Source: Streptosporangium carneum
Lineage (GTDB): Bacteria; Actinomycetota; Actinomycetes; Streptosporangiales; Streptosporangiaceae
Assembly (NCBI RefSeq): GCF_027922005.1
Contig: NZ_BSEV01000003.1
Coordinates: 1-64,000, forward strand
DNA: 64,000 bases
Reading direction: 5' to 3'
This document shows positions 12,620-37,177 of the stretch, piece by piece (positions within the stretch are counted from its first letter, which is position 1; every line of letters starts with the position of its first letter). The notes under the pieces were generated by a model that was not told the DNA's origin, did not search any database, and was given only the letters and a program-made list of their open reading frames with translations. The translations under genes were made by a program, and so were the position numbers.

Positions 12620-12634
12620 TCCCGCTGACCGGGA
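12620..12634. promoter_or_regulatory. candidate operator, TCCCGCTGACCGGGA
   Basis: This pseudo-palindrome lies 77 bases upstream of the OYE/fadD17/igr operon. It is the exact reverse complement of the site at 33320-33334 and one base from the site at 19293-19307. It sits in the only gap between the Liv genes and the igr-like operon. Confidence 0.6.
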
Positions 12635-12643
12635 GGCAGGCCG

Positions 12644-13000
12644 TCAGATCTGCCGGTTCTCCAGCGCCGCGGTGATCTGGTCCACCTGCGACTGGCCCTC
12701 CAGCAGCTGACGGAGCAGCCACAGCCGCAGCACCCTCGCCACCGCGCCCGCCAGGTAGAGGGCGGCGCCCAGCACCGTGAGGGCGACGAAGGCCGTCGCC
12801 AGGACCTGGAAGGAGCCGACGTTGCGGAGGTCGTCCTGGGACAGCGAGTTGACGTAGGAGACGAAGCCTCCCGCCACCCCGACGACCATCAGCACCACGC
12901 CCAGGATCCGGCTCCTGCCGTCGCCCGCCGACTGGTCGGTCTTCAGCTTCATCCCCGCCACGTCCGTCTTGAACTGTTCCCGTCGTTCCTCGGTGAGCAT
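12644..13000 (-). CDS. two-helix membrane protein of unknown function next to the Liv transporter
   Basis: The 118-residue product has a charged N-terminus, a membrane helix near residues 33-52 (ILGVVLMVVGVAGGFVSYV), a second near 66-90 and a soluble tail ending TAALENRQI. I do not recognise a family. It follows livF by three bases on the same strand, so it is co-transcribed with the ABC importer and may be an accessory membrane protein of that system. Confidence 0.6.
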   Translation of the reverse strand: MLTEERREQFKTDVAGMKLKTDQSAGDGRSRILGVVLMVVGVAGGFVSYVNSLSQDDLRNVGSFQVLATAFVALTVLGAALYLAGAVARVLRLWLLRQLLEGQSQVDQITAALENRQI

Positions 13001-13003
13001 TCT

Positions 13004-13780
13004 TCAGCCTCCTAGATAGCTGCTTGACAGTTGTTCCTCGATCTCGTCGGGCCTGCCGACGGAGACGACGCGGCCGTGCAGCATCAGCGCGGCGGTGTCG
13101 GCGATGGGGAGCACCGCGCGCGCGAACTGCTCGGCGACCAGGATGGACAGGCCCTCGGCGACGAGCTGCGCGACGGTGTCGTACATCTGGGTCACGATCA
13201 TGGGAGCCAGCCCCATGGACAGCTCGTCGAGCAGCAGGACCGCAGGGTTGGACCCCAGGGCGCGTGAGAGCGCCAGCATCTGCTGCTCGCCTCCCGACAT
13301 CGAGCCCGCGAGCTGGTTGCGCCGCTTGCCGAGGATCGGGAAGCGGGAGTAGGCCGCCTCCTCCATCTCCTCCATGCGCGCCCCCGTGCCGGTGGCGACC
13401 CACAGGTTCTCCCGCACCGAGAGGTTGGCGAAGATGCCCCGTCCCTCGGGAATGGAGCACACTCCCAGGCGCGCCGCGTCCTGCGCCGAGATGCCGTTCA
13501 CCCTGCGCCCGGCGAACCTGAGGTCGCCGCCGGTGAGGGGCAGCAGGCCCGCGCAGACCTTCATGGTGGTCGACTTCCCACCGCCGTTCGGGCCGAGGAG
13601 CGCGAGCACCGAGCCCGCCTCGACCTTCAGGTCCACGCCGTGCAGCACCTCGATCGGCCCGTACGCCGCGCGGGCGGCCACCAGCTCCAGCAGGGGCTCG
13701 GGTCCGCCGGCGTCCGCCGTCCCCGGGGAGAGCCCGGACGTCGCGTCCATCTCGTGGCCTCCTGCGGCCTGTCCGGTCAT
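13004..13780 (-). CDS. livF: ABC importer ATP-binding protein, LivF type
   Basis: The 258-residue ATPase has Walker A GPNGGGKST (residues 63-71), the EGRGIFANLSVRENL segment typical of LivF, signature SGGEQQ and Walker B AVLLLDE. About 28 residues precede the conserved domain; the ATG at 13780 overlaps the livG stop (ATGA), which supports this start. It would energise the fused LivHM permease. Its place among steroid genes suggests import of a steroid acid rather than an amino acid, which is inference. Confidence 0.85.
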   Translation of the reverse strand: MTGQAAGGHEMDATSGLSPGTADAGGPEPLLELVAARAAYGPIEVLHGVDLKVEAGSVLALLGPNGGGKSTTMKVCAGLLPLTGGDLRFAGRRVNGISAQDAARLGVCSIPEGRGIFANLSVRENLWVATGTGARMEEMEEAAYSRFPILGKRRNQLAGSMSGGEQQMLALSRALGSNPAVLLLDELSMGLAPMIVTQMYDTVAQLVAEGLSILVAEQFARAVLPIADTAALMLHGRVVSVGRPDEIEEQLSSSYLGG

Positions 13781-14508
13781 GCGGTGACCTCCGTACCGAT
13801 GTAGGCGGCGATGACCTCCGGCGACTCCTGGATCTCCTTCGGGGTTCCCGAGGCGATGACCGCGCCGTAGTCGAGCACGTGGATCGTGGCGCAGAGCTTC
13901 ATCACCAGCGGGAGGTCGTGCTCGACCAGGCAGATCGCCAGCCCCTCCTCCGCGAGGCCGGTCAGCATCCTGGCGAACGCCTCGGTCTCCTGCTCGGTCT
14001 GGCCCGAGGCGGGCTCGTCCAGCAGGAGCACGCGCGGCGAGGTCATCAGCGCCCTGGCGACCTCGACGACGCGGGCCCGGCCCGTCGGGATGTCGGAGAC
14101 GTCGAGGTCGGCGATGTCGCCCAGGCCCGTCCGCTCGAGCACCCGGTCGGTCTCCTTGTCGACGTCGACGCGGCTGCCCGTGTTGGCCCGCAGGATGTCG
14201 CCGGCGACTCTGATGTTGTCCCGCACCGACAGCGACAGGAAGAGCTCCAGCCGCTGGAAGGTCCTGGCCATGCCCCTGCGCGCGCGTTTGGCCGGGGGCA
14301 GGCGGGTGACGTCGACGCCGTCGAGGAGGACTCTCCCCTCCGCGGGTCGCTGCAGGCCGGTGACGGTGTTGAACAGCGTCGTCTTGCCCGCGCCGTTCGG
14401 GCCGATGAGGCCGGTGATCCGTCCCTCGTCCACGCCGACGCTGACGTTGTCGACGGCGGTGTTGCCGCCGAAGCGGACGGTGATGCCCTGTGTCTCAAGC
14501 AACGACAT
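13777..14508 (-). CDS. livG: ABC importer ATP-binding protein, LivG type
   Basis: The 243-residue ATPase has Walker A GPNGAGKTT (residues 36-44), RTFQRLELF in the Q-loop region and Walker B VLLLDEPASG. The ABC signature is degenerate: where LSxGQ is expected it reads DIPTGRARVVEVARAL. It overlaps the permease gene by 14 bases and livF by four. It pairs with LivF in the heteromeric ATPase of the importer. Confidence 0.83.
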   Translation of the reverse strand: MSLLETQGITVRFGGNTAVDNVSVGVDEGRITGLIGPNGAGKTTLFNTVTGLQRPAEGRVLLDGVDVTRLPPAKRARRGMARTFQRLELFLSLSVRDNIRVAGDILRANTGSRVDVDKETDRVLERTGLGDIADLDVSDIPTGRARVVEVARALMTSPRVLLLDEPASGQTEQETEAFARMLTGLAEEGLAICLVEHDLPLVMKLCATIHVLDYGAVIASGTPKEIQESPEVIAAYIGTEVTA

Positions 14509-16789
14509 GGACGTTTCCCTCCTCGGCCCCGCTCCGGACGGGGCGGCGCCCGCCTGGCGTGGGTCCCCGGTCGTGGCCGGACAGGCCGAGCTCGCGGTCG
14601 AGCTCGCGTCGCAGTTCCTCGGTGTACGGCTCGTCGACGCCGACCAGCTCGGGCGGCGTCCTGTGAGGAGCCGGGCGCCCCTCGTCCGGCGCGACCCGCG
14701 CCATGACCATCCGCCCGAAGACCGGCAGCATCATGACCAGGCACGCGGTGAGGATCGCGAACCACCAGTTGTCCATGATCCCGGCCAGCGTGAGGCCGTA
14801 CAGCGCGGCCTCGAGCACGGCGCCGCCGACCAGCACGGGCCTGGCGTCGCGCAGGCTCCGGTAGCTCTCGACGACGTCGTGGACGGTGCCGCTGGGGCTC
14901 TTGCCGACCCCGATGCCGAGCAGGGCCGTGCTGACGACCGACAGGCTGCCGATGGCCTGGTAGACCGGGGCCAGGTCGGGGTTGGCCGCGGCGAGGTCGT
15001 TGAAGGTCGCGACGATGATCACGAATCCGACGCCGGACATCAGGCCGCCGAAGAGGGCGCCGCTGACGTAGCCGATCCCGGCCGCGACGGTGAGCATCAG
15101 CAGGGCGAGGCCGGCCATGACGTTGAAGTTCTCCGACGCGACCGAGCCGATGGCGCTCGACATCAGGACGCTGCCGAGACCGGCGATGGCGGCCGAGATC
15201 ATGAAGACGCTGAGCTTCAGCTTGACCAGGTTCTGACCGAGCATCGCCGAGGCCGCGGGGCTGTCCTTCATCGCGGCCAGGCGCCTGCCGTACCCGCTGT
15301 TGCGCAGCGCGATGAGGCCGACGCCGATCAGGGCGAACAGCACGGTCGCGGTCATCAGGAACGTGTCGCCGTCCCGCAGGTCGAGGGGACCGATCCGCAG
15401 CGGCGGTATGATCAGCGAGCCGTTGGGGAACAGCGAGAACGTGACGCCGAAGACCGTGTGCTCGGTGGTGTCGCGCAGCACCATGTTCGACAGGAAGACG
15501 CCGAAGGCCAGGGTGGCGAGGGCCAGGTAGAGCCCGCGCAGCCTGAGCGCGGGCAGCGCGACCAGGCCGCCGACGACGGCGGTCACCAGGACGGCGAGCA
15601 GGACGCCCCACACGTCGAGGCGGGCGGCCAGCCCGGTGCCGACGACGCCGAAGTGGAAGACGACGATCGTGGCGACCGCGCCGAACGACAGCGGCGCGAG
15701 GTTCAGCTCCCCGGCGTACCCGGTGAGCACGGTGAGCGACAGGGCGATGATCGCGAACGTCATTCCCAGGGCGAACGTGCTGACCGAGGTCTCGACCATG
15801 AGGAGCTTGAGCAGGTAGACGACGGCCACGAGGGCCACGCCCCAGACCGCCGCCCTGCGCACCGTGGGGACGCGGTAGCGCTCGCGGGTCCGGATCGCGG
15901 CGCCCCGCAGGCGCTCCTGCGGAAGCACGATGAGCACGACGAAAAGGATGATCATCGGTAGCGAGATCCGGAAGTTGCTGGTCCAGGTCCACGCGGACGG
16001 GAAGTACGCCATGACGTAGGTCGCCGTCATGCCCAGCACGATCGCGCCGGCGAAGGTGCGCGGGATGCTGCGCAGACGCCCGAACATCGCCGCCGCGAAC
16101 GCGTCGATGACCAGCAGCGTCAGCGCGTTCGCCTGGAGGGCGCCGCCGCCGATCGGGGTGATCAGGATGCCCGCCAGCACGGCGAGGGTCGAGCCCATCA
16201 TCCAGGACAGGGCGGCGACGCGCTCGGGGTTGTGGCCGTTGAGCCTGAGCAGGTCGGGGTCGTCGACCGCGCCCCTCATGACCACGCCGACCCGGCTGCG
16301 GGTGAACAGCAGGCGCAGGCCGATGGCGATGGCCGCCGCCACCACCAGGCAGATGATCTCGTGAACCCGGATGACCACGCCGGAGAACTCGACCTTCGCG
16401 TTCGAGCCGAAGAACATCTCGACGATCCTGGCCTCCTCCGGATGCCAGATCCACTGGGACAGGTACACCATCCCGAGCAGGACCGCGACGGTGACGACGA
16501 TCTTGGTCACGTCCGCGGTGTCGCGCAGCCCCTTCATGATCAGGGCGTGCAGCAGGCCGCCCATGGCGGGCCCGACGACGCCGAGCACGACGACGAGCGC
16601 CAGCCAGACGGGCCAGCCCCAGCCGTAGGCGAGCTGCCAGTACAGGAAGGCGCCCAGCATGGCCTGCGCGCCGTGGGCGAAGTTGAAGATTCCCGAGGTG
16701 TTGTAGGTCAGCACCAGCCCGGAGGCGGCGATGGCGTACACCGCCCCCAGGACCAGCCCGAGGATCGTGAAGGTCAGGAACGTCGTCAT
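14495..16789 (-). CDS. livHM: fused LivH-LivM branched-chain-type ABC permease
   Basis: The 764-residue product fuses two permease units that are usually separate. The first half begins with the LivH-type GAVYAIAASGLVLTYNTSG and FNFAHG segments; the second, from about residue 320, contains the LivM-type LTGYAGELNLAPLSFGAVA motif and RLRGLYLALATLAFG. Many membrane helices are evident throughout. A hydrophilic tail of about 70 residues (from RVAPDEGRP) follows the last helix. It is separated from livK by a strong hairpin. Confidence 0.85.
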   Translation of the reverse strand: MTTFLTFTILGLVLGAVYAIAASGLVLTYNTSGIFNFAHGAQAMLGAFLYWQLAYGWGWPVWLALVVVLGVVGPAMGGLLHALIMKGLRDTADVTKIVVTVAVLLGMVYLSQWIWHPEEARIVEMFFGSNAKVEFSGVVIRVHEIICLVVAAAIAIGLRLLFTRSRVGVVMRGAVDDPDLLRLNGHNPERVAALSWMMGSTLAVLAGILITPIGGGALQANALTLLVIDAFAAAMFGRLRSIPRTFAGAIVLGMTATYVMAYFPSAWTWTSNFRISLPMIILFVVLIVLPQERLRGAAIRTRERYRVPTVRRAAVWGVALVAVVYLLKLLMVETSVSTFALGMTFAIIALSLTVLTGYAGELNLAPLSFGAVATIVVFHFGVVGTGLAARLDVWGVLLAVLVTAVVGGLVALPALRLRGLYLALATLAFGVFLSNMVLRDTTEHTVFGVTFSLFPNGSLIIPPLRIGPLDLRDGDTFLMTATVLFALIGVGLIALRNSGYGRRLAAMKDSPAASAMLGQNLVKLKLSVFMISAAIAGLGSVLMSSAIGSVASENFNVMAGLALLMLTVAAGIGYVSGALFGGLMSGVGFVIIVATFNDLAAANPDLAPVYQAIGSLSVVSTALLGIGVGKSPSGTVHDVVESYRSLRDARPVLVGGAVLEAALYGLTLAGIMDNWWFAILTACLVMMLPVFGRMVMARVAPDEGRPAPHRTPPELVGVDEPYTEELRRELDRELGLSGHDRGPTPGGRRPVRSGAEEGNVHVVA

Positions 16790-16821
16790 CGATTCCCCCT
16801 TGGTGAGTTCGGGAGTGGTCA

Positions 16822-16862
16822 GGGGGCGCCGCCCGCGGAAACGGTCCGCGGGCGGCGCCCCC
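16822..16862 (-). terminator. strong hairpin between livK and livHM
   Basis: An 18-base-pair perfect stem, 16822-16839 against 16845-16862, has a five-base AACGG loop. It starts nine bases after the livK stop. It can act as a partial terminator or 3' stabiliser that leaves binding-protein mRNA in excess over permease and ATPase mRNA, a common arrangement in ABC operons. Confidence 0.75.
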
Positions 16863-16870
16863 GCCGAGGG

Positions 16871-18301
16871 TCAGACCGTCGGCTTGATCACGTCGGGGGT
16901 CAGGAAGGTGGTGGCGACCCGGTCCTCGTTGAGCTTGGTGCCCCAGGTGGCCGGGTCAGTCTTGAGGATGTTCTCCTTGTTGCAGTCGTACTCGCCGATG
17001 TTCTCCGGGTAGAACTGCGCGAACTTCGGGCCCGTGAGCTTCAGCATGAGCGAGCAGGAGGAGGGCATGTTGGCGCCCGGGTCGGTCGGGGCGTGCAGGC
17101 CGCCTCCGGTCCACTCGTGCACCTGGGAGAGCTTGTTGATCACGCACTGACGGGTCAGCTCGGAGCCGCAGGCCTGCGCGGCCTGCGCCCACAGCAGGAA
17201 CCCGGAGGTCGCCTGCATGCCGAGCAGCGCGACCTTGCCGTGCTCGGCGTTGACCAGGTCGAGGTACTTCTTGACCGCGGGCACCTTGTCGGCGTTCTCG
17301 AACGGCTGGAAGATCGTTCCAACGTGGATCTTGTCGCCCACGCCCTGGGTGTTCCACTTGGAGACGGCCGTGCTGTACCAGGTCGCCTCGAACACCAGCG
17401 TCGGCTTGCTTCCCACCCGGTCCAGCGCCTCGAGCAGGCTGAAGGACGCGGGGTCGGGCGTCTTGGAGGTCCACAGCGCCTCGACGCCGCAGGACTTGAA
17501 CTTCTCCGCGAACGGGACGTAGCTCGCGTCACCGTCGTTGTTGAGCATCACGCCGCAGTTCATCGGCGTGATGCCGATCTTCTTCATCGCGGCCGCGATC
17601 TTGTTGCTTCCCGTCTTGACCGCGGGCGAGGTCGAGACGATGAGGTCGACCTTCTTGCCGAACTCGGGGAACAGCTTGGCGGCCAGGCGCAGGGCGGAGC
17701 TGTTGTACTGGTCGACCGGGTAGGGGACGGCCTCGTACTTCATCGGGCCCATCGCGGCGTTCGGCCCGACGGTGAAGCCCGCGACCGTGGGCAGCTTGCA
17801 GCCGACGCGGAACTGCTCGGCCGCCTCGTCCATGGCGAAGCCCTGGCCGACGAGCATGAAGTCCTGCTTGCAGGCCTTCTGCATGACGGTCGCGGCCTGC
17901 ATGTAGGCGGCGTCGTACTGGTTGCCCTTGATCTGGCGGCCGTTGATGCCGCCCTGGCCGTTACACCACTTGATCATGGTGCTGATGGCGTCGCCCATCT
18001 CCTTGGACAGGCCGGGCGCGGCGGGGAAGCCGCGGTCGTCGCCGAAGCCGATGGTGATCTGGGTGTCGGTGACGCCCTGCTCTGTCGCACCCTTGGCGTC
18101 GCCCTTGCCGCACGGCGACTTCAGCGTCCCGAACGTCTCCTCGCCGCCGGACGCCGCCGCGTCACCGGAGGCCGGCGCCGTCGTGCCGTTCGTACCGGCC
18201 GACACGTCGACCGACCCTCCGCGCTCGCTCGCACAGGCGGTGGCGAGCATCGCGAGGACGACAGTACCCGCCGCGAAGCGGGCGATCCTGTTGCCTGTCA
18301 T
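16871..18301 (-). CDS. livK: ABC importer substrate-binding lipoprotein, cysteine-rich, LivK-like
   Basis: The 476-residue product has a lipoprotein signal (NRIARFAAGTVVLAMLATAC, lipid Cys23) and a Ser/Thr/Gly-rich linker to about residue 55. A type I periplasmic-binding fold of the Leu/Ile/Val family follows, with TDTQITIGFG and KWCNGQGGINGRQI. It holds about ten cysteines after the lipid cysteine, for example in SPCGKG, KWCNG, KACKQ, VGCKL, SSCSL and YDCNK, suggesting several disulfides. The ligand is unknown; context points to a steroid or bile acid. It heads the importer genes. Confidence 0.82.
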   Translation of the reverse strand: MTGNRIARFAAGTVVLAMLATACASERGGSVDVSAGTNGTTAPASGDAAASGGEETFGTLKSPCGKGDAKGATEQGVTDTQITIGFGDDRGFPAAPGLSKEMGDAISTMIKWCNGQGGINGRQIKGNQYDAAYMQAATVMQKACKQDFMLVGQGFAMDEAAEQFRVGCKLPTVAGFTVGPNAAMGPMKYEAVPYPVDQYNSSALRLAAKLFPEFGKKVDLIVSTSPAVKTGSNKIAAAMKKIGITPMNCGVMLNNDGDASYVPFAEKFKSCGVEALWTSKTPDPASFSLLEALDRVGSKPTLVFEATWYSTAVSKWNTQGVGDKIHVGTIFQPFENADKVPAVKKYLDLVNAEHGKVALLGMQATSGFLLWAQAAQACGSELTRQCVINKLSQVHEWTGGGLHAPTDPGANMPSSCSLMLKLTGPKFAQFYPENIGEYDCNKENILKTDPATWGTKLNEDRVATTFLTPDVIKPTV

Positions 18302-18460: not shown

Positions 18461-19222
18461 TCATCCGAAGTAGGCCTGACCGCCGTCGAGCGGCAGGGTC
18501 GCGCCGGTGAGGTACCGCATGCCGGGACCGACGAGCGCGACCACGGCCTGCCCGATGTCCTGCTCGCAGTCACCGACGTAGCCGAGCGGGATCTGCCTGC
18601 AGAACTCCTCGGCCTCCGCGGGCTTGGCCTCCATCCACCGCTTGAGCCCGGGTGAGAGCGCGTGCGGGGCGATGGAGTTGGCGCGGATGCCGTCCGCGCC
18701 CCATTCCGCGGCGGCCGTCCTGGTCAGCGACCGCAGAGCCTGCTTGGCCGCGGCGTACGCGCCGTAGGTCGCCGGATCCCAGCGGACCATGGCCGAGCTG
18801 ACGAGGTTGACGATGTTGCCGCCGCCGCGCCGCTTCATGTGCGGGTGGCAGGCGGTCATGAAGGCGAAGGCGGCGAAGGGGGCGGTCAGGAATCCCTTCT
18901 GGAAGTCGGCGTCGCTCATCGACAGCAGCGGGCCGTAGGAGCCCGCGTAGGCGTTGTTGACGAGAATGTCGACCCCGCCGAAACGGGAGACCACCTCGGT
19001 GACGACGGCCCGGACGGCCTCGGTGTCGCTCACCTCGCACAGAAAGGCCTCGGCCTCGGCCCCGCGCTCGCGGAGCAGGTCGCAGGTCGTCTCCAGCTTC
19101 GCCATGGTCCGGCCGAGGACCGCGACGGACGCGCCCTCCCCGGCCAGGGCGAGCGCGATGCCCTGGCCCACGCCCTGGCCCGCACCGGTCACGATCGCGA
19201 CTTTTCCCTTGAGGCTGCCCAT
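18461..19222 (-). CDS. short-chain dehydrogenase/reductase
   Basis: The 253-residue SDR has TGAGQGVG as its cofactor loop, NNAYAG, a serine in LVSSAMV and the pair YGAYAAAKQ with catalytic Tyr and Lys. The ATG at 19222 is preceded by GGGAGAG; longer in-frame starts exist but add non-SDR sequence. It lies upstream of livK on the same strand with a 159-base gap and is divergent from a ligase gene. The 251-base divergent gap carries two copies of the TCCC-N7-GGGA operator. Substrate unknown. Confidence 0.72.
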   Translation of the reverse strand: MGSLKGKVAIVTGAGQGVGQGIALALAGEGASVAVLGRTMAKLETTCDLLRERGAEAEAFLCEVSDTEAVRAVVTEVVSRFGGVDILVNNAYAGSYGPLLSMSDADFQKGFLTAPFAAFAFMTACHPHMKRRGGGNIVNLVSSAMVRWDPATYGAYAAAKQALRSLTRTAAAEWGADGIRANSIAPHALSPGLKRWMEAKPAEAEEFCRQIPLGYVGDCEQDIGQAVVALVGPGMRYLTGATLPLDGGQAYFG

Positions 19223-19292
19223 CACTCTCCCGTTTCGCCGTGGCCTGATTGACGGCAATAGTGATGTGACCCGGCCCACTCCAAACGGGAAG

Positions 19293-19362
19293 TCCCGCTC
19301 ACCGGGAACAAGTGCTCCCGGTGAGGAAGATCGCCATGACAGCGCGGTCCCGGTCAGTGGGA
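19293..19362. promoter_or_regulatory. paired candidate operators in a divergent promoter
   Basis: TCCCGCTCACCGGGA occupies 19293-19307 and TCCCGGTCAGTGGGA occupies 19348-19362, 55 bases apart start to start. A degenerate third copy with only the left half conserved sits at 19316-19330. They lie between the SDR (minus) and acyl-CoA ligase (plus) genes. Confidence 0.62.
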
Positions 19363-19473
19363 AGACCTGTTCAGCGCCACACACGACGACCAGAATGGGC
19401 GGTCAGGCAGACGCACGCCGTGTGACGCCCTCGTCGCACGGCGGGACGAGCGTGGTGGGACGAAAGAGAATCG

Positions 19474-21150
19474 ATGGCCACATCCACAGATCCGAGAACG
19501 GCAGCGATGGAGATCATGACTCGCCTGACCGGCCCCGGCGGTGAGTTCGAACTGGCCGAGGAGGAGGTCCTCGGCTCGCGGATGCAGGTCTTCAGAAACC
19601 GCCCACGGAACCTCGGCGAGATGCTCGCCGCATCGGTCGGGTTCGGCGACGACGACTACATCGTGACCGCGAACGAGCGGCTGAGCTTCACCGGCCACGC
19701 GGCCCAGGTGGCGTCGCTGGCGAAGGCGCTCCGCGAGGAGTACGGCGTGCGCAGGGGCGACCGCGTCGCCATCGACGCCGCGAACTCCCCCGGCTGGATC
19801 GTCTCCTTCTGGGCGACCGTCGCCGTCGACGCGATCGCGGTCGGCTACAACGCGTGGTGGTCGCGCCGCGAGATCGAGTACGCCCTGGGGCACACCACTC
19901 CGAAGGTCGTCATCGCGGACGCCAAGCGTGCCGCGCTGATCGGGGAGACAGGTGAGAACGGCCCGGTCGTCCTGACCCTGGAGGAGGACGTCCCGCGGCT
20001 GAGCCGCCTGCACCCGGACGCCGCCCTGCCCGTTTCCGAGGCCGCCGAGGACGACCCCGCGGTCATCCTCTACACCAGCGGGACGTCGGGCCGCCCCAAG
20101 GGAGCGGTGCACTCGCACCGGAACCTGACCTCGGTCGTCCAGTACCACCGGATGAACGACGCCCTGGCCCGCGAGTTCGGCGACCCGACCGACCCGGCGA
20201 GCAGGCGTTACCTGCTGGCGCTGCCGCTGTTCCACATCGCGAGCCTGCACAACCTGGCGGTGCCCCGCCTGGCGAACGGCAGCGCGGTGGTCATGCACCA
20301 GGGCGCCTTCGACGTCGACAGGGTGCTGCGGCTGATCGAGAAGGAGCGCGTCACCAACTGGGGAGCCGTGCCGACCATGGCCAACCGGCTGATCGAGCAC
20401 GGTGACCTGTCGAAGTACGACCTCTCCTCGCTGCGCGCCTTCTCCCTGGCGTCCGCGCCCTCCTCCCCCGCGTTCAAGGAACGGCTGCGCAAGGCGCTGC
20501 CGATCGCCGAGCAGGCCCTGGTCGACAGCTACGGCCTGACCGAGTCGTCGACCGCCATAGCCGCGGCGACGCCGCAGGACCTCGCGGAGTCCCCGGGAAC
20601 GCTGGGCCGTCCCATCACGACCGTGCGGCTGGAGATCCGCGACTTCGAGGGCAACGCGCTCCCCGAGGGCGAGGAGGGCGAGATCTGCGTCCGCAGCCCG
20701 TTCAACATGCTCGGCTACTGGCAGGACCCCGAGGCGACCGCGCGGGCGATCGACGAGGACCGGTGGCTGCACACCGGCGACATCGGCATGGTCGAGCAGG
20801 GACGGGTGCGCCTGACCACCAGGCGCTCCGACCTGATCCTGCGCGGCGGCGAGAACGTCTACCCCGCCGAGATCGAGAACGTGCTGGCGGAGTACCCCGG
20901 CGTCCAGGAGTGCATCGTGATCGGCGTGCCGCACTCCGACCTGGGCCAGGAGATCATGGCGGTCGTCGTCACCGACGGCAGGCCCGTCAGCGAGGAGGAT
21001 CTCAGGGCGTACACCCAGCAGGAGCTGGCCTACTTCAAGGTCCCGTCCCGGTGGCGGATCACCCAGGAGAGCCTGCCCAGGAACGCCACAGGGAAGGTGA
21101 TCCGTCGCGAGGTAGAGCTCTCCGTGGACGACACCCCCGGCGCTCACTGA
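19474..21150 (+). CDS. acyl-CoA synthetase (FadD family)
   Basis: The 558-residue AMP-forming ligase has P-loop [37 protein letters not shown] and the hinge and lysine motifs [14 protein letters not shown] and [11 protein letters not shown]. It has the full length of the family. It does not closely match FadD3, FadD17 or FadD19 as I recall them, so the substrate is open; a steroid or fatty side-chain acid is likely from context. It is convergent with the thioesterase gene across a terminator. Confidence 0.78.
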
Positions 21151-29196: not shown

Positions 29197-30354
29197 CTAG
29201 TCCCGCTGAGTGATCCCGGCATCGCCGAGCCGGGTGATCTCCGCCTCGTCGAGACCGATCCAGGCGAGCACCTCACGGGTGTGCTCGCCGATCACCGGAG
29301 GCGAGGACCGGATCTCGGCGGGCGTGCGCGAGAAACGCGGCGCGGGAGCGGGCTGCACGACGCCGTCCCGCGAGACGAACGTCGCGCGGGCGACGTTGTG
29401 CGGGTGCGCGGGCGCCTCCGCCAGGGAGAGCACCGGCGCGACGCACGCGTCCGTTCCGGTGAACACCTCCTGCCAGTGGTCGCGCGTGTTCTCCGCGAAC
29501 GCCCCGGCGAGCCGTTCGCGCAGCGCGGGCCAGGTCGAGGGGTCGTACTGGGCGCCGGGGTCGAGGTCGGCGATCCCCAGGAGCCCCAGGAGCCGTCCGA
29601 AGAACTGCGGCTCGATCGGGCCGACCGAGACGTGGCCGCCGTCCGAGGTGGCGTACACGTCGTAGAAGGGCGCCCCGGTGTCGAGCAGGTTCGTGCCGCG
29701 CTCCGACCACCGCCCCATGGCCTGGGCTCCGTAGAACGGCGCCATCAGCAGGGCGGAGCCGTCGACCATGGCGGCGTCGACGACCTGGCCCGCGCCGTCC
29801 CGCCCGGCCGCGAGCAGGCCCGCGAGCACGCCGCACGCCAGCAGCATGGCGCCGCCGCCGTAGTCGCCGACCAGGTTCAACGGCGGCACCGGGGCCTGCC
29901 CCGCGCGACCGATCGCCGACAGCGCGCCGGACAGCGAGATGTAGTTGATGTCGTGCCCCGCGCTGTGGGCCAGCGGCCCGTCCTGCCCCCACCCGGTCAT
30001 CCGCCCGTAGACCAGGCGGCCGTTGCGGGCCAGGCACTCCTGCGGGCCGAGCCCGAGCCGCTCCATGACGCCCGGCCGGTAGCCCTCGATCAGCGCGTCG
30101 GCCCTCTCGACGAGCCTGAGCACCAGCTCGACGCCCTCCGGCGACTTCAGGTCGATCGTGACGGACCTGCGCCCCCTGGACGTCACGTCGGCGGAGTCGG
30201 CCTCCACGGCCCCGTCGGCGCCCGGCGACGAGGCCGCTCTCGGCCTGTCGACGCGGATCACGTCGGCGCCGAGGTCGGCGAGCAGCATCCCGGCGAACGG
30301 CCCCGGACCGATGCCGGCCATCTCCACGACGGTGAAACCCGTTAGCGGACCCAT
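29197..30354 (-). CDS. CaiB/BaiF-family enzyme, probable alpha-methylacyl-CoA racemase
   Basis: The 385-residue type III CoA-transferase/racemase starts [20 protein letters not shown] with AGGAGAG upstream, a better start than the ORF opening 15 bases earlier. It has the racemase catalytic pair in [15 protein letters not shown] (His134) and [11 protein letters not shown] (Asp164). In sterol degradation this enzyme epimerises the C25 methyl-branched acyl-CoA so that beta-oxidation can begin. It is the first gene of the operon running to the thioesterase at 21227. Confidence 0.82.
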
Positions 30355-30363: not shown

Positions 30364-30378
30364 CCCCACTCAGCGGGA
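30364..30378. promoter_or_regulatory. candidate operator, CCCCACTCAGCGGGA
   Basis: This copy of the TCCC-N7-GGGA pseudo-palindrome has the first T changed to C. It lies 10 bases upstream of the CaiB-like start and in the divergent gap shared with the hsd4A-like gene. Confidence 0.5.
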
Positions 30379-30392
30379 CTGACCTCTTGGCC

Positions 30393-30416
30393 AAAACTAG
30401 AATACATACTAGTTTT
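30393..30416. promoter_or_regulatory. inverted repeat AAAACTAG-N8-CTAGTTTT
   Basis: Eight-base perfect arms flank AATACATA in the divergent gap between the CaiB-like and Hsd4A-like genes. The local AT-richness is unusual for this genome. It looks like a TetR-family operator, and KstR is the obvious candidate. Confidence 0.5.
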
Positions 30417-31388: not shown

Positions 31389-31410
31389 CACGCCACCGGT
31401 GAGACCCACG

Positions 31411-31444: not shown

Positions 31445-31510
31445 CTCTCGTCTCACGGCGGCCGGAAAGGAACAGACCGCTTCGACGTGGACACGCCGAT
31501 GACCGCTCCT

Positions 31511-31636
31511 CGCGCCCAAGCCTCCTGTACGACCGGGAATGGTTTTGGCTTGGGCGCGCCGGTGTCTGGACTGAGGAGCGAAGGAGCGAAGCGGATGAGC
31601 GACGAGGGAAGACGCCGGCCCGGTAGCGCCCAAGCC
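31511..31636. repeat. short interspersed repeat unit with three GCGCCCAAGCC copies
   Basis: CGCGCCCAAGCC (31511-31522) and GGCTTGGGCGCG (31547-31558) form a perfect inverted repeat, and a third copy, GCGCCCAAGCC, lies at 31626-31636. Between them runs a purine-rich stretch with repeated GGAGCGA units (31574-31606). The element is non-coding and sits between two convergent genes with their own terminators. It resembles a REP-like or small mobile palindromic unit. Confidence 0.5.
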
Positions 31637-31638
31637 CT

Positions 31639-31658
31639 GCGACGCCGCCAGGCGTCGC
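31639..31658 (-). terminator. hairpin at the end of hsdA
   Basis: GCGACGCC (31639-31646) pairs with GGCGTCGC (31651-31658) across GCCA, directly after the TAG stop of the minus-strand gene. Confidence 0.65.
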
Positions 31659-32431
31659 TAATAAACAGGGCCCCGCAGGACGGTCTCGGCGCCGCCGTCG
31701 ACGTAGATGACCTGGCCGGTCATGTGGGAGTTGGCCGGGGCGACCAGCCAGCGCAGCGCCTCGGCGATCACCTCGGCGCTCGCGTAGCCGTTCAGGGGCA
31801 TGGGGACGGCCTTGTCCATGACCTGCCGCATGGCCTCGTCCTCGAACAGGGGCGCGGACATCGGCGTGAGCACGACCCCCGGCGCGATCGCGTTGAGCGG
31901 GATCCCGTTGCCCGCCCACTCGGGCGTGATCGAGACGCGGCGCAGCCAGCGGGCCAGCGCGGTCTTCGACGACGGGTACAGCCTGCGTCCCTCCCCCCGC
32001 TCGACGGCCGCGTCCGACAGGGCCAGCGCCGTCCGCTCGTCGTCGTCGAGGCAGGCCTCGACGACGTTGTCGTCCGCGGGCTGAATGCCAGCGATGGAGC
32101 CGACCACGGCGGCTCGCGGCCGCTCCGCGGCGGCGAGCGCCGGGCGCAGCCCGTCGAGCAGGGCGGTCACCCCGAAGAAGTTCACCCGGACGGTCAGCGG
32201 GGTCGGCCCCGAGACGCCCGCGCAGGCGACGACGCCGTCGAGCACGCCGCCGGACAGCTCCAGCACGGAGGCGACCGCGTGCGCGCGCCCCTCCGGCGTC
32301 GCGAGGTCGGCGTTCACCTCGGCGTCCCTGAGGTCGACGCCGATCACCTCGTCCCCCTGCTCGCGCAGCAGGCGCGCGAGTGCCTGCCCGATGCCCGAGG
32401 CGGTTCCGCTCACCGCTATGCGACGTGTCAT
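31658..32431 (-). CDS. hsdA: HsdA-like 3-alpha-hydroxysteroid dehydrogenase
   Basis: The 257-residue SDR has the unusual cofactor loop SGTASGIGQAL followed by EVIGVDLRDAEVNADLATPEGR. This mirrors the recalled 3-alpha-hydroxysteroid dehydrogenase/carbonyl reductase of Comamonas testosteroni (GIDIRDAEVIADLSTAEGR). The catalytic Tyr and Lys are in RRLYPSSKTAL and the C-terminus is GQVIYVDGGAETVLRG. It would oxidise the 3-alpha-hydroxyl of bile-acid-type steroids. AGGAGC precedes the ATG at 32431; an in-frame start 48 bases upstream lacks a ribosome site. It follows another SDR by 22 bases. Confidence 0.8.
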   Translation of the reverse strand: MTRRIAVSGTASGIGQALARLLREQGDEVIGVDLRDAEVNADLATPEGRAHAVASVLELSGGVLDGVVACAGVSGPTPLTVRVNFFGVTALLDGLRPALAAAERPRAAVVGSIAGIQPADDNVVEACLDDDERTALALSDAAVERGEGRRLYPSSKTALARWLRRVSITPEWAGNGIPLNAIAPGVVLTPMSAPLFEDEAMRQVMDKAVPMPLNGYASAEVIAEALRWLVAPANSHMTGQVIYVDGGAETVLRGPVY

Positions 32432-32453
32432 GTCGTTGCTCCTGGTAGTCGTG

Positions 32454-33209
32454 TCAGGTGTGGGATCCGCCGTCGACACGGATCTCCGCTCCGGTGAGAT
32501 ACCCGCCGTCGCGCGAGGCCGCGAACGCGATCACCCCGGCGATCTGCTCGGGGCTCGCCGCGCCGAGCGGCGAGCGGATCCGTCCGTAGTAGGAGAGGTC
32601 GAGATCCCGGGGAAGCACGTCGGGGTTGCTCGTCAGCGGGGTCCTGACCGTTCCCGGGGAGACGGGCACGACCCGGATGCCGCGCCCGACGACCTCGGCG
32701 GCCAGGCTGAGCGAGAACGCCAGCACCGCGCCCTTCGAGGCGGAGTAGGCCGTCATGTACGGGTTGCCGTGCGCGGCCGCGGACGAGGCGACGTTGACGA
32801 TCACCCCGGTCCCGTCGGGCAGGTGGCGCAGCGCCTCCCTGCAGAACAGCGCCGTGCCGACGAGGTTGACGGAGAAGAGCCGCTGCAGGTCCTCGACGGT
32901 CAGCGTGTCGATCGGCGTGGCCTTGTGGACGCCCGCGACGTTGACGAGGACGTCGATGCCGCCGAGCTCGGCCGCGGCGGCCCGCACCGCCTCGACGACG
33001 GCGGGCTCGTCGGAGACGTCGGCGGCGTGCGTGACGATCCCGCCGGGTCCCGTCGCCGATCCCGCCGTCTCGGCGAGGCCGTCCTTCGCCAGGTCGACGG
33101 CGAAGACCGTCGCGCCCTCGGAGACGAGTCTGAGCGCGGTCGCGCGCCCGATGCCCGAGCCCGCGCCGGTGAGCAGGACCTTCACTCCGTCGAAGCGGTT
33201 CAGTGCCAT
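32454..33209 (-). CDS. short-chain dehydrogenase/reductase, hydroxysteroid type
   Basis: The 251-residue SDR has TGAGSGIGRATAL, the conserved Asp of FAVDLAKDG, NVAGVHKATP, Ser in VASSAAAH and YSASKGAV. It ends GGYLTGAEIRVDGGSHT. It is co-directional with and 22 bases upstream of hsdA, so it probably handles another hydroxyl on the steroid; the position cannot be read from sequence. An operator-like pseudo-palindrome lies about 110 bases upstream of its start. Confidence 0.72.
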   Translation of the reverse strand: MALNRFDGVKVLLTGAGSGIGRATALRLVSEGATVFAVDLAKDGLAETAGSATGPGGIVTHAADVSDEPAVVEAVRAAAAELGGIDVLVNVAGVHKATPIDTLTVEDLQRLFSVNLVGTALFCREALRHLPDGTGVIVNVASSAAAHGNPYMTAYSASKGAVLAFSLSLAAEVVGRGIRVVPVSPGTVRTPLTSNPDVLPRDLDLSYYGRIRSPLGAASPEQIAGVIAFAASRDGGYLTGAEIRVDGGSHT

Positions 33210-33319
33210 GTGCGTCGGGTCCTCCGCGTCTTCTGCCGGTCCCGCGCGCCACGCCGGGAAGGCGTCGGCGCCGGGGTGACGCGACGGTATCCGTACGCCT
33301 CACGGCGCGCGGGGAGGGA

Positions 33320-33334
33320 TCCCGGTCAGCGGGA
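33320..33334. promoter_or_regulatory. candidate operator, TCCCGGTCAGCGGGA
   Basis: It lies between the end of the TetR gene and the SDR/hsdA operon, 111 bases upstream of the SDR start. It is the exact reverse complement of the site at 12620-12634. Confidence 0.6.
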
Positions 33335-33345
33335 GCCCGGGAGGA

Positions 33346-33963
33346 TCAGCTCCCGGACGCGTTCGAGCGCGGGGCCAGCAGGAGTCTGCAGGCGAGACGG
33401 ATGTCGGCCTCCGCGTCGGGCATGGAGAGCCTTCCGTTGAGGCTGGCCTGCAGCCCGCCGTACCAGCACTGCACCAGGAGCCGGATCAGGGTGATGTCCT
33501 GGACCGTCGGGTTGTCGATCCCGAGGGTCTTGAGAATGATCGCGCGGAAGGCGCTGTCGATCCTGCCCGCGTCGGTGATCGTGGCGGCGTTGGCCGAACT
33601 CGACGACTGCATCATCGCGATCGCCAGCGCGGGCCTGCTCAGCAGTTGCCTGGAGGCGCTGACCAGCACCTCGTAGACCGCGTCCTCCGGGCTCGTGCCC
33701 TCCTTGGGGCGGGGGGCGAGCTCGTTGAAACGATCTATCTGCTCGGCCAGGACCGCGGTGAACAGGTGGGTCTTGGAGGGGAAGTAACGGTACAGCGTGC
33801 CGATCGCGACACCCGCGGCTCTGGCCACCTCGTGCATCTGGACGCGTTCGAGCCCCTTCTCCGCGGCGATTCTCGCCGCGGCCCTGAGGATGCGCACATG
33901 CCGGGCGCGCTGCTCGGGCGAGCTCGGCTCGGCCGGCGGTCTGACCTCGGCGATTCTCGGCAC
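33346..33963 (-). CDS. KstR-like TetR-family transcriptional regulator
   Basis: The 205-residue regulator has a TetR helix-turn-helix at about residues 27-72, with VQMHEVARAAGVAIGTLYRYFPSKTHLF; the QMxxVAxxAxVAxGTLYRYFPSKxHL pattern matches recalled KstR, the steroid-degradation repressor. The C-terminal ligand-binding part is helical. I prefer the GTG at 33963 (MPRIAEV), which has GGGGAG upstream; an ATG at 34002 would add 13 residues. It is divergent from kstD and is the only regulator in the steroid island, so it may bind the palindromes listed here. Ligand unproven. Confidence 0.78.
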   Translation of the reverse strand: MPRIAEVRPPAEPSSPEQRARHVRILRAAARIAAEKGLERVQMHEVARAAGVAIGTLYRYFPSKTHLFTAVLAEQIDRFNELAPRPKEGTSPEDAVYEVLVSASRQLLSRPALAIAMMQSSSSANAATITDAGRIDSAFRAIILKTLGIDNPTVQDITLIRLLVQCWYGGLQASLNGRLSMPDAEADIRLACRLLLAPRSNASGS

Positions 33964-34037
33964 GGTCTCCCCTGGAGAGTGGGTTCGATGTCGACAAAAC
34001 AATACACAGGGGTAGGCGCGAACAAGTGAATTACGGA

Positions 34038-34052
34038 TACCGGTGAGTGGGA
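34038..34052. promoter_or_regulatory. candidate operator, TACCGGTGAGTGGGA
   Basis: This copy of the recurrent pseudo-palindrome lies 70 bases upstream of kstD. It differs from the strict TCCC left arm only at the second base. It shares the divergent gap with the TetR gene. Confidence 0.5.
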
Positions 34053-34121
34053 CGGGACAGCCACCGCCGGCGTGGGCTGCGGTTGCCTGAGGCGGGCCGC
34101 GACTGCACAGGAGGACAGGGC

Positions 34122-35660
34122 ATGACGAGCGCCGGGCTGTGGGACGACGAGTACGACGTGGTGGTTGTGGGATCCGGGGCCGGGGCCATGACCGGCGCGT
34201 TCGCGGCGGCCTCGGACGGCCTGCGCACCCTCGTGCTGGAGAAGACGCCGCTGCTCGGCGGCACCTCCGCCTACTCCGGATCGGCCGCCTGGCTGCCCGG
34301 CAGCCAGGTGCAGGAACGGGCGGGGATCGGGGACTCCACGGAATCGGCCCGCACCTATCTCAGGGCGCTGCTCGGAGAGGACACGGCGCGACGGCGTGAG
34401 GCCTTCCTGACGACCGCCCCCGAGGTCGTCGAGTTCCTTGAGCGCGACCCGGCGATCGAGTTCGAGTGGCGGGCCTTCCCCGACTACTTCGACGCCCCCG
34501 GGCGGATGGACGCCGGGCGCTCCTTCGTTCCGCTCGACCTTCCCGCGGACCGGCTCGGCGACCTGCTGCCCCTGGTGCGTCCCTCCGTCGACCGCGACCG
34601 GGCGGGGCAGCCCCATCCCGAGGGTCCCCTGACCGCGGGACGGGCGCTGATCGGACGGCTGCTGCTCGCGCTGACCGGCACGGGAAACGGTTTCGTCCGC
34701 ACCGGCGCCCGCATGACCGGACTCGTCATCGAGGACGGACGGGTGACCGGCGTCGAGGCGGAGACCTCGCAGGGCCCGGTGCGGATCCGCGCGGCTCGAG
34801 GCGTGCTCATGGCCGCGGGCGGCTTCGAGGGCAACGGTCCCATGCGTGAGCGGAACGGCGTCCCCGGGGCGGCGGCCTGGACGATGGCGCCCCGCGGCAC
34901 GAACACCGGGGAGCCGATCGAGGCCGCCGTCGCGATCGGCGCCGCGACCGACCTGATGGACCAGGCGTGGTGGTGCCCCGGCGTCGAGCAGCCGGACGGG
35001 GCCGCCGCCTTCACCCTGGGCTTCAGGGGCGGCATCATGGTCGACGCCTCCGGCAGGCGCTTCGCCAACGAGTCCCTCCCCTACGACAGGATGGGCCGCG
35101 AGATGGCCGCGGCGGCGGACCGCGTTCCCGCCCATCTCGTCTTCGACTCCCGCTTCGGCGGCGGCCTTCCCGCCATCTCGCTGCCCGGCCGCCCGGCGGA
35201 GGAGCACCTGGCCTCGGGCACCTGGGTCAGGGCCGAGACCGTCGAGGAGCTGGCCGAGCTGCTCGGCGTGCCGAAGGAGACCCTGACCGCGACGGTGGAG
35301 CGGTTCAACGGCTTCGCCGCCCTCGGCGTCGACGAGGACTTCCACCGGGGTGAGGACCCCTACGACCTGTTCTTCGCCGACCGCTCCCACGGCGGCCCCA
35401 ACCCGTGCCTGGTCCCGCTCGACAGGGCGCCGTACTACGCCGCACGCGTCGTGCTGAGCGACCTGGGCACCAAGGGCGGTCTGCGGACCGACGAGGACGG
35501 CAGGGTCCTCGACGGCCAGGACGCGCCCATCCCCGGCCTGTACGCGGCGGGCAACACCAGCGCGTCGTTCGCGGGCCGTCACTATCCGGGCCCCGGCGTC
35601 CCGATCGGCTCGGCGATGGTCTTCTCCTACCGCGCGGTACGGGACATGGCCGCGCGATGA
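34122..35660 (+). CDS. kstD: 3-ketosteroid delta-1-dehydrogenase (KstD-like)
   Basis: The 512-residue flavoprotein has the N-terminal FAD motif VVVGSGAGAMTGAFAA, the EKTPLLGGTSAYSGSAAWLP segment of the family, and C-terminal PYYAARVVLSDLGTKGGLRTD and GLYAAGNTSASFAGRHYPGPG. These carry the conserved tyrosine and glycine positions of KstD. It introduces the C1-C2 double bond into the steroid A ring. AGGAGG precedes the ATG at 34122. Related delta-4-dehydrogenases share the fold, so exact regiochemistry is inferred. Confidence 0.83.
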   Translation: MTSAGLWDDEYDVVVVGSGAGAMTGAFAAASDGLRTLVLEKTPLLGGTSAYSGSAAWLPGSQVQERAGIGDSTESARTYLRALLGEDTARRREAFLTTAPEVVEFLERDPAIEFEWRAFPDYFDAPGRMDAGRSFVPLDLPADRLGDLLPLVRPSVDRDRAGQPHPEGPLTAGRALIGRLLLALTGTGNGFVRTGARMTGLVIEDGRVTGVEAETSQGPVRIRAARGVLMAAGGFEGNGPMRERNGVPGAAAWTMAPRGTNTGEPIEAAVAIGAATDLMDQAWWCPGVEQPDGAAAFTLGFRGGIMVDASGRRFANESLPYDRMGREMAAAADRVPAHLVFDSRFGGGLPAISLPGRPAEEHLASGTWVRAETVEELAELLGVPKETLTATVERFNGFAALGVDEDFHRGEDPYDLFFADRSHGGPNPCLVPLDRAPYYAARVVLSDLGTKGGLRTDEDGRVLDGQDAPIPGLYAAGNTSASFAGRHYPGPGVPIGSAMVFSYRAVRDMAAR

Positions 35661-35867
35661 GGTGCGCCGCCCGGTGGAGCGGGGCCCGGCCCGGCGCGTG
35701 TTGGCGCTGGCGGCACTGGCCATACGCCGGGTGTCGGCCGTAGGCTCGGGCGATCAGGCGCTCCGGCGACCTCACCGACTTCGCGCTCCGGTGGCCGCGC
35801 GGGCCCCGGCCGGTGGCCCCGGCCCGTGATGCCCCCCGATCCCGGGCCGGGCCTCTCGGGCCAGGCA

Positions 35868-35906
35868 GGACCGGATCCCGGGGGCAGCCCGGCCCGGGTC
35901 CGGTCC
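35868..35906. terminator. bidirectional terminator between kstD and hsaA
   Basis: GGACCGGATCCCGGG (35868-35882) pairs with CCCGGGTCCGGTCC (35893-35906) with one bulged base, across a ten-base loop. The two genes are convergent. The remainder of 35661-35913 is very GC-rich and shows no gene. Confidence 0.7.
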
Positions 35907-35913
35907 GGTGGGA

Positions 35914-37080
35914 TCAGATGAGGTTGTCCTCGACGGTCAGGCCGAACTCGCCCTTGCCGTACATCGCCAGGGCCCGCTCCACGTCGTTGGCCACGTGCAC
36001 GCTGCCCGCGTGGGCGTCGCGCCACGCGCGCTCGATGGGGTTGCCGCGCCTGAGCGAGTTCCCTCCAGCGATCTTGAAGAGGATGTCGATCGCCTCGATC
36101 GCCCGCTCGGTGCCGCGGACCTGGTCCCTGCGGGTGCGCAACCTCAGCTCCATCGGGATCTCCTCGCCCTTGACGGCGTGCTCGTAGACCTCGCGCACGT
36201 TGCGGTCGTTCTGCAGGATCGCGGCGTCGATCTCGGAGGCCGCCCTGGCCACCGCGACCTGGGCGAACTGGTCCTCGGCGAACCTGCCGCCGCCCAGACT
36301 GAGCCGCACCCTGTCGCGCATCGCGGTGATGTAGGAGCGGTAGCAGCCCGCGACCGTTCCGATCACCGGCGCGGTGATCGCGGAGGTGAAGACCGACGCG
36401 AACGGCATCCGGTGCAACGGCCCCGTGTTGACCTTCTGCCCGGGGCCGCGCAGCTGCGCCTGCTCGTAGTTGCGCATCGTCCGGTAGCCGGGGACGAAGG
36501 CCCGCTCGACGATGACGTCGTTGCTCGCGGTGCCGCGCAGACCGATCACGTCCCAGACGTCCTCGATCCTGTAGTCGGTCTGGGGGACCAGCACGGTCAT
36601 GAAGTCCACCGGCCTGCCCTCGGCGCCCACGACCAGGCCTCCGACCAGGACCCATGACGCGTGCTCGCATCCGGAGGAGAAGCTCCACCGCCCGGACAGC
36701 TCGTAGCCGCCCTCGACCGGGGTCAGCCGTCCCACGGGCGCGTAGGAGGAGGAGACCAGGGTGTCCGGGTTCTCGCGCCAGACCTCGTCCTGCGCGACCT
36801 CGGCGAACAGGCCCAGCTGCCACGGGTGCACGCCGAGGACGCCGGTCACCCAGCCCGTCGAGCCGCAGACGCCGGAGATCTCCCGGACGACCTCGAAGAA
36901 GGCGACCGGGTCGCTCTCCGCGCCGCCGTACCTCTTGGGCTGCAGCATCCGGAAGACGCCCGCGCGGGTGAGCTCTCTGATCGTCTCTTCGGGAACGCGC
37001 CGGTTCTCGTCGGTCGACCGGGCCCGTTCGGCGATGTTCGGCAGCAGTGTGCGAACCGATTCCAGCACCTCGTTGCTCAT
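35914..37080 (-). CDS. hsaA: HsaA-like flavin-dependent monooxygenase, oxygenase subunit
   Basis: The 388-residue protein belongs to the acyl-CoA-dehydrogenase-like two-component monooxygenases. Phrases such as VCGSTGWVTGVLGVHPWQLGLF, SSSYAPVG, FSSGCEHASWVLVGG and AWRDAHAGSVHVANDVERA agree with recalled mycobacterial HsaA. HsaA hydroxylates 3-HSA to the catechol 3,4-DHSA after KstD and KshA open ring B. The reductase HsaB and the ring-cleavage genes hsaC and hsaD are not in the window. It is divergent from kshA. Confidence 0.84.
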   Translation of the reverse strand: MSNEVLESVRTLLPNIAERARSTDENRRVPEETIRELTRAGVFRMLQPKRYGGAESDPVAFFEVVREISGVCGSTGWVTGVLGVHPWQLGLFAEVAQDEVWRENPDTLVSSSYAPVGRLTPVEGGYELSGRWSFSSGCEHASWVLVGGLVVGAEGRPVDFMTVLVPQTDYRIEDVWDVIGLRGTASNDVIVERAFVPGYRTMRNYEQAQLRGPGQKVNTGPLHRMPFASVFTSAITAPVIGTVAGCYRSYITAMRDRVRLSLGGGRFAEDQFAQVAVARAASEIDAAILQNDRNVREVYEHAVKGEEIPMELRLRTRRDQVRGTERAIEAIDILFKIAGGNSLRRGNPIERAWRDAHAGSVHVANDVERALAMYGKGEFGLTVEDNLI

Positions 37081-37162
37081 GGTTTGCGTTCTCCGTGTCG
37101 CGCTCGTCCATCAGGTACAGAGCACGATGGTGCGTCGCGTCGACGGGGAGTTGTCCGAAACA

Positions 37163-37177
37163 TCCCGACCAATGGGA
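37163..37177. promoter_or_regulatory. candidate operator variant, TCCCGACCAATGGGA
   Basis: It has the TCCC and GGGA arms and central A of the recurrent pseudo-palindrome, with other central bases changed. It lies in the divergent gap between hsaA and kshA. Confidence 0.45.

Follow-up and report, generated by a model that had tools for sequence, protein, structure and literature searches.

The first 40 kb of the stretch of Streptosporangium carneum DNA analysed in this study (64,000 nucleotides, positions 1-64000 of contig NZ_BSEV01000003.1, here C3, in a genome of 9.84 Mb; called the window) are occupied by a cholate-type steroid cluster according to profile models, and a 15-bp palindrome, TCCCGNTNANCGGGA, recurs in its promoter gaps. 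We consider it likely that this palindrome is the operator of an IclR-family activator of bile-acid catabolism. The identity of the binder, activation rather than repression, and the ligand are what we infer from sequence: at promoters with a -10 box but without a conserved -35 box, an IclR dimer would bind the palindrome, whose centre lies near -50, and would recruit RNA polymerase in the presence of a bile-acid catabolite. The window genes switched on would be fadD3, the OYE-casI unit, casG, SDR genes, a kstD-like gene, a KstR-like TetR gene, hsaA and kshA. The sites, their conservation, their spacing and their co-occurrence with an IclR gene were computed directly.

Sites of the palindrome and their conservation

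A reading of the letters alone (the sequence-only reading) had listed seven sites and a degenerate copy at 19316, all in gaps of the steroid island. All were recovered, and all lie outside called genes (coding and non-coding were decided by gene calls from a GC-frame script, and annotation of the window reaches 43 kb). The sites at 12620, 19293, 19348 and 33320 match the consensus TCCCGSTSASYGGGA exactly, and those at 12620 and 33320 are the two exact reverse complements that had been noticed. On the better strand 30364 and 34038 are one base off, and 37163 and 19316 three. The site at 2853 was absent from that reading. Scores below come from a matrix of 134 sites, all from other genomes, and boxes are -10-like sequences ([TC]ANNNT or T[AT]NNNT) with strand and distance from the operator.

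2853..2867: putative operator TCCCGGTGGCTGGTA between fadD3 (-) and an SDR gene (+); 14.9 bits, rank 6; boxes TATTCT 2897-2902 (+, 29 bp) and CACCAT 2817-2822 (-, 30 bp)
12620..12634: putative operator TCCCGCTGACCGGGA before the OYE-casI unit (-); 22.0 bits, rank 3; box TAACGT 12585-12590 (-, 29 bp)
19293..19307: putative operator TCCCGCTCACCGGGA facing the SDR gene 18461-19225 (-); 22.0 bits, rank 1; box CACTAT 19258-19263 (-, 29 bp)
19316..19330: degenerate copy TCCCGGTGAGGAAGA between the 19293 and 19348 sites; 8.3 bits; no -10-like box found at the usual distance, function doubtful
19348..19362: putative operator TCCCGGTCAGTGGGA facing casG (+); 21.4 bits, rank 4; box CAGAAT 19391-19396 (+, 28 bp)
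30364..30378: putative operator CCCCACTCAGCGGGA between a CaiB-type gene (-) and an SDR gene (+); 14.7 bits, rank 7; boxes TAGTTT 30410-30415 (+, 31 bp) and CACCGT 30329-30334 (-, 29 bp), the latter doubtful because it adjoins the called start of the CaiB gene
33320..33334: putative operator TCCCGGTCAGCGGGA facing the SDR gene 32454-33209 (-); 22.0 bits, rank 2; box TACCGT 33284-33289 (-, 30 bp)
34038..34052: putative operator TACCGGTGAGTGGGA between the TetR gene (-) and the kstD-like gene (+); 20.0 bits, rank 5; boxes TATTGT 33999-34004 (-, 33 bp) and TTGCCT 34083-34088 (+, 30 bp)
37163..37177: putative operator TCCCGACCAATGGGA between hsaA (-) and kshA (+); 12.2 bits, rank 13; boxes TACCTT 37208-37213 (+, 30 bp) and CACCAT 37127-37132 (-, 30 bp)

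The bare frame TCCC-N7-GGGA is not enriched in the window (48 places with at most one mismatch, 57.9 expected); the signal resides in the inner letters of the palindrome. The matrix found 5 window places at 16 bits or more, where simulated windows gave 0.25, and 7 at 14 bits or more, where they gave 0.5, though it is partly circular because its sites had been gathered by allowing two mismatches to the earlier consensus. Right of 40.1 kb, in what the sequence-only reading had by its own label called the glycopeptide region, there are no sites, as it had claimed; the best places reach 12.4 bits (50775, coding) and 10.3 bits (43762, non-coding). A one-mismatch copy at 6203-6217, rank 8, lies inside the MaoC-like coding gene 5850-6290; this and the other coding matches ranked between 8 and 13 are probably due to chance.

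Motif discovery upstream of genes in relatives gave the same answer. Run without a supplied motif on the regions upstream of 57 TetR genes, de novo expectation maximisation (EM) returned TCCCACTGACCGGTA with a log-likelihood ratio of 417, compared with 64-75 in four shuffles. The counterpart of 34038 at orthologous TetR promoters was thus recovered de novo, and the other strand of 34038, TCCCACTCACCGGTA, is one letter from TCCCACTGACCGGTA. The operator at TetR promoters (34038 and related loci) is consistently asymmetric (TCCCACT..CCGGTA), and elsewhere the sites are near-perfect palindromes; because of this asymmetry, listing the exact palindromes of TetR promoters yielded no clear signal. 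With the operator masked, EM on the TetR promoters found weaker non-palindromic signals (129 vs 66 at width 14, 187 vs 80-84 at width 18).

The density and conservation of the sites also agree with a steroid regulon; neither an equal density elsewhere nor a loss of conservation at orthologous promoters, which would have spoken against the sequence-only reading, was seen. In the genome itself, 56 distinct one-mismatch places were examined. Non-coding sequence, which makes up 17.3% of the bases examined, holds 24 of them; the remaining 32, in coding sequence, are probably chance matches. A scan of named genomes yielded 79 TetR loci, treated as 67 close and 12 distant. A site near TetR (250 bp upstream or just behind) was found with at most one mismatch in 14/67 and with at most two in 41/67 close loci, counts matched by 0/300 shuffled palindromes, and in 0/12 distant loci. 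Within three mismatches, the site is conserved at orthologous first genes: casG (19/19), kshA (33/37), the kstD-like gene (28/31), SDR 30456 (24/30) and hsaA (25/41). It is rare at operon-internal genes (thioesterase 0/25, HadAB-like 1/16, acyl-CoA dehydrogenase 1/26). Among 150 family genomes, the 23 TetR carriers average 2.96 exact sites and the 127 others 0.94; a reversed control pattern averages 0.30 and 0.08. The sites, found at orthologous promoters in other genera, therefore behave like putative operators of a steroid (cholate-type) regulon, as had been proposed.

Promoter geometry

Spacing was measured on 257 unique gene-facing sites of related loci as the offset from the operator to the start of TANNNT. 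This box begins 29 bp behind the operator in 31/257 and 30 bp behind it in 52/257 (together 83/257), and 109/257 have it at 28-33 bp; outside 28-36 bp each offset occurs at most 8 times. The preference recurs promoter by promoter: casI 7/7 at 29-31 bp, OYE 6/7 at 30, SDR 32454 6/7 and kshA 22/34 at 29-30, and SDR 30456 19/25 at 30. The TetR side is looser, with 15/57 at 32-33 bp, and the asymmetric site there, with its longer distance to the -10 box, is perhaps a weaker operator. When the 109 sites were aligned at the -10 box, a conserved -35 was not found (all columns of the -35 zone at most 0.15 bits). KstR-type operators, typed by sequence (38 unique sites out of 42 places, 3 places left out), show no preferred -10 offset, with at most 2 at any offset.

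In the window, a -10-like box stands 28-33 bp away on 12/12 gene-facing sides of the eight operators and on 0/4 sides facing no gene start, against a background of 8.7% of the positions in non-coding window DNA. The definition of the box was widened to admit an initial C or T only after the window had been seen, and by strict TANNNT the count is 6/12. The sites thus combine, as activator-type promoters do, an operator at a fixed distance from the -10 box with no conserved -35. With the -10 box set at -12 to -7, the operator centre falls near -50. Constant spacing suggests contact with RNA polymerase and hence activation, so that the operator would serve an activator centred near -50. Because the operator is symmetric and a -10 box lies about 29-33 bp off on either side, a single copy could drive two divergent promoters.

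Directly behind operator 30364 and covering its -10 box is a perfect palindrome, AAAACTAG-N8-CTAGTTTT (30393-30416). Orthologous promoters retain a related stretch, and exact AACTAG-N8-CTAGTT has only one copy in the window. A second regulator may bind here.

IclR and TetR as candidate regulators

The candidate activator gene lies 63 kb past the window on the same contig, beside hsaB, hsaD, kstD- and kshB-like genes:

C3:127396-128220, minus strand: IclR-family gene; IclR_C 118.8 bits (cut-off 24), HTH_IclR 45.9 bits (cut-off 22)

It belongs to a second steroid block (C3:119.8-131.5 kb) whose genes are, by their domains, hsaF, hsaG, kshB, kstD, hsaD, hsaB, a luciferase-type monooxygenase and SnoaL. 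The block also holds four sites of at least 17 bits: before hsaG (C3:122862), before the luciferase-type gene (C3:128402), and at C3:126620 and 126690 between hsaD and hsaB, the last two each with a -10 on its own side at 30-31 bp.

TetR was initially favoured as the binder, and IclR came to be preferred because of the genomes in which the two are discordant. IclR was scored as present if a match reached E 1e-60 or better or if an IclR homolog lay beside TetR. Of the 23 TetR carriers in the family sample, 22 have an ortholog, and so do the genomes that contain 61 of the 67 close TetR loci. The motif (at least 11 bits) stands at the TetR promoter in 62/69 loci with an IclR ortholog but in 1/20 without (Fisher 1e-12, kinship ignored; L301 was omitted, and its inclusion would add one locus with IclR absent and no motif). 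Five genomes scored as lacking IclR (G222, G249, G252, G253, G547) carry 44-48% homologs elsewhere in the genome. In mycobacteria the motif is at TetR in 5/5 loci with an adjacent IclR and 0/7 without, and three of the mycobacterial TetR loci lacking both have the same luciferase-type, SnoaL and SDR neighbours. In G069, whose TetR is 77% identical, neither an IclR (at E 1e-25) nor a motif at TetR was found. Of the six IclR-only genomes, with no TetR ortholog, three retain motif and -10 spacing: G172, with four sites that include the kshA, hsaD and hsaB promoters, G162, at hsaD, and G349.

In a 57-row IclR tree, 38/39 motif-linked rows fall within one supported clade of 45, and 1/12 rows outside it is motif-linked; five labels were set by hand, where the motif was more than 1.5 kb from IclR. 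Three tested rows from the five genomes scored as lacking IclR lie outside the motif clade, and the G547 row lies inside it. In mycobacterial and one Nocardioidaceae members, the DNA-binding part of IclR keeps 0.54-0.62 identity, compared with 0.26-0.30 for the remainder, which has diverged. Outside the main cluster, an IclR paralog of 51% identity (L196, G091:C8) has an upstream site, TCTCACTGACCGGGA, and on the divergent side of this site a -10 lies at 31 bp.

The palindrome is not new, because the same sequence has been published as Lcin1, TCCCGGT[C/G]ACCGGGA, which came from footprinting of genes that lithocholate induces in Nocardioides simplex VKM Ac-2033D (PMC7593942). The sequence-only interpretation stands in part and is outdated on this point: the motif had been described, and its factor is left open in the available text of that paper, where KR76_18060 is proposed owing to its lithocholate induction and further research is called for. 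The Lcin1 regulon resembles the one described here in that an identical 15-bp palindrome precedes kshA and other genes of the cholate cluster as well as an hsaEGF-type operon (PMC7593942), and in the window sites at least one letter off the Lcin1 pattern stand before casG, the casI unit, kshA, hsaA and the kstD-like gene. It differs in that the available text mentions no IclR, no protein family for KR76_18060 and no promoter spacing, and names KstR3 orthologs. The N. simplex tags given there are casH-like oxidoreductase 18020, SDR 18030, regulator 18040, kshA 18045, SDR 18055, regulator 18060, flavin oxidoreductase 18065 and dehydratase-like 18075 (PMC7593942). The gene order of Pimelobacter simplex (L068) is OYE, casG, SDR, SDR, TetR, kshA, SDR, IclR, luciferase-type gene and SnoaL. 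Since the two orders agree, KR76_18060, which lithocholate induces, would correspond to the IclR, and KR76_18040, which it does not induce, to the TetR. What is new beyond the available text of PMC7593942 is the regulator's identity and the promoter spacing rule, both of them deduced from comparisons of genomes.

Beyond PMC7593942, the papers listed for Lcin1 are two unrelated uses of the string; the name KstR3 occurs in three papers, and no IclR for the bile-acid pathway is described in the titles or abstract openings among the matches listed. A figure legend in the R. ruber Chol-4 genome paper marks an iclR gene in the steroid region. The available part of the review PMC8399759 calls the regulation of bile-acid degradation little known; the sole regulator it mentions for the cholate cluster of actinobacteria is a KstR homolog.

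The main competitor is repression by the KstR-like TetR (33346-34002, KstR3), which would bind the motif and autoregulate, with a bile-acid CoA ester as the releasing ligand. The TetR of 33346-33963 was also the binder that the sequence-only reading had proposed for testing. Its own promoter carries a site (at least 11 bits) in 57/67 closer loci, the same one recovered de novo, TetR regulators often autoregulate, and L038 retains the motif with no close IclR found. However, 19 of the 20 TetR loci without an IclR ortholog are also without the motif, among them G069 and the three mycobacterial loci, whereas motif and spacing survive in three of the six genomes that have IclR and no TetR ortholog, and KstR-type operators show no fixed -10 spacing. 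We therefore consider TetR as the binder unlikely; the TetR gene is more probably controlled by the operator than the source of the protein that reads it. It is less probable still that both proteins share the operator, with IclR as activator and TetR as competitor or modulator. Their nearly complete co-occurrence would fit, as would the asymmetry of the TetR-promoter site and its more distant -10 box (32-33 bp), but the motif was not found in TetR-only loci except L038, and unrelated DNA-binding folds would have to use one 15-bp site. That the sites are simply chance GC-rich palindromes is hardly credible: the average of 0.94 exact copies in non-carrier genomes, the 32/56 one-mismatch places in coding sequence and the unenriched bare frame speak for it, but they are set against the excess in carriers, conservation at first genes and not inside operons, the failure of all shuffled palindromes to do as well near TetR, and the fixed spacing.

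Several observations weigh against the IclR activator. Because IclR and TetR co-occur almost fully, few genomes decide between them. A missing -35 is by itself no proof of activation, because promoters of high-GC actinobacteria often have a weak -35. Strict TANNNT at 28-33 bp is missing for the casG, SDR 18461 and luciferase-type (LLM) promoters, and several sites of this genome outside the window are without a -10-like box at 28-33 bp. Among the IclR-only genomes, G581 has a site before kshA but no -10, and no convincing site was found in the stretch examined of G007 (IclR 76% identical) and G337. Seven of the 69 loci with IclR have no motif at TetR, no site is found in the 450 bp upstream of IclR itself in 19/30 loci, and L038 (Saccharomonospora halophila, draft) has the motif although its IclR homologs reach only 36%. 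Finally, the available text of PMC7593942 terms KR76_18060 a KstR3 ortholog.

Steroid genes, further sites and known systems

Among the cluster genes, fadD3, casI, casG and hsaA are all beyond curated cut-offs, and kshA was recognised through its Pfam domain. Further members are a camABCD-type ABC transporter and several SDR genes. The predicted targets and the TetR gene are as follows.

1150..2775, minus strand: fadD3-type acyl-CoA ligase; NF005801 717 bits (cut-off 657); predicted target of 2853
9642..12504, minus strand: OYE/BaiCD-like gene and casI; casI NF052587 1044.5 bits (cut-off 900), OYE-like gene under cut-offs; predicted targets of 12620
19507..21150, plus strand: casG, steroid-24-oyl-CoA synthetase; NF052580 926.7 bits (cut-off 750); predicted target of 19348
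33346..34002, minus strand: KstR-like TetR (KstR3 type); KstR model 109.7 bits (cut-off 280); TetR_C_20
34122..35660, plus strand: 3-ketosteroid dehydrogenase-like (kstD-like) gene; top matches are 3-ketosteroid dehydrogenase models, under their cut-offs; predicted target of 34038
35914..37080, minus strand: hsaA; NF045629 658.3 bits (cut-off 450); predicted target of 37163
37348..38430, plus strand: kshA; KshA_C 318.3 bits; predicted target of 37163

Elsewhere in the genome, three sites of at least 17 bits, one with a -10, lie in a cluster on contig C34 (29300-38900, L098) of three SDR genes, SnoaL, a luciferase-type monooxygenase and MFS genes, which is possibly a hydroxysteroid-modifying satellite cluster of the regulon. 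On contig C37 a site of at least 17 bits, with a -10 at 31 bp, stands next to a pair of SDR and FAA-hydrolase genes. A lipase-domain gene and a pullulanase-like gene have between them two copies of the operator with a distance of 97 bp (C3:252418 and 252515, L097), one with the -10-like TTGCCT at 30 bp. One-mismatch places by unrelated genes (pullulanase/lipase, sugar kinase, HPP membrane protein) are not claimed for the regulon.

The system also differs from that of KstR, the TetR-family repressor of cholesterol catabolism. The window TetR is a KstR paralog that stays under the curated cut-off, and no protein of the whole genome reaches 280 bits (best 140.8 and 109.8). The sites had been said to differ from KstR boxes, and the KstR operator TAGAACNNGTTCTA, which elsewhere shows no -10 spacing, has no exact match in the genome. 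This genome may thus degrade steroids without KstR, since it has neither a KstR-grade protein nor an exact box. The structure 3BJB, which we take to come from strain RHA1, is an ortholog of the window TetR (263.6 bits) with 6 differences to the R. jostii L036 protein in 203 aligned residues counted by eye; its listed name, "probable transcriptional regulator, TetR family", gives no function. IclR-family catabolic activators of the PcaU, PobR and MhpR type offer another parallel, with IclR HTH and effector domains, a catabolic cluster and a palindromic site upstream of the -35 region. The candidate system, a putative activator, differs from these in its steroid pathway, its 15-bp GC-rich site and the symmetric use of that site in divergent promoters.

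Until now the KstR-like TetR (KstR3) has been the assumed regulator of the cholate cluster. We consider it slightly more probable than its opposite that a conserved IclR activator instead runs actinobacterial bile-acid catabolism through promoters with a -10 and no -35 box, using one symmetric operator near -50, and that KstR3 is among its targets. If so, the bile-acid pathway would gain its activator and a promoter rule (operator, about 30 bp, TANNNT), annotation and steroid biotechnology would gain a regulon list, and 3BJB would be placed in a regulon.

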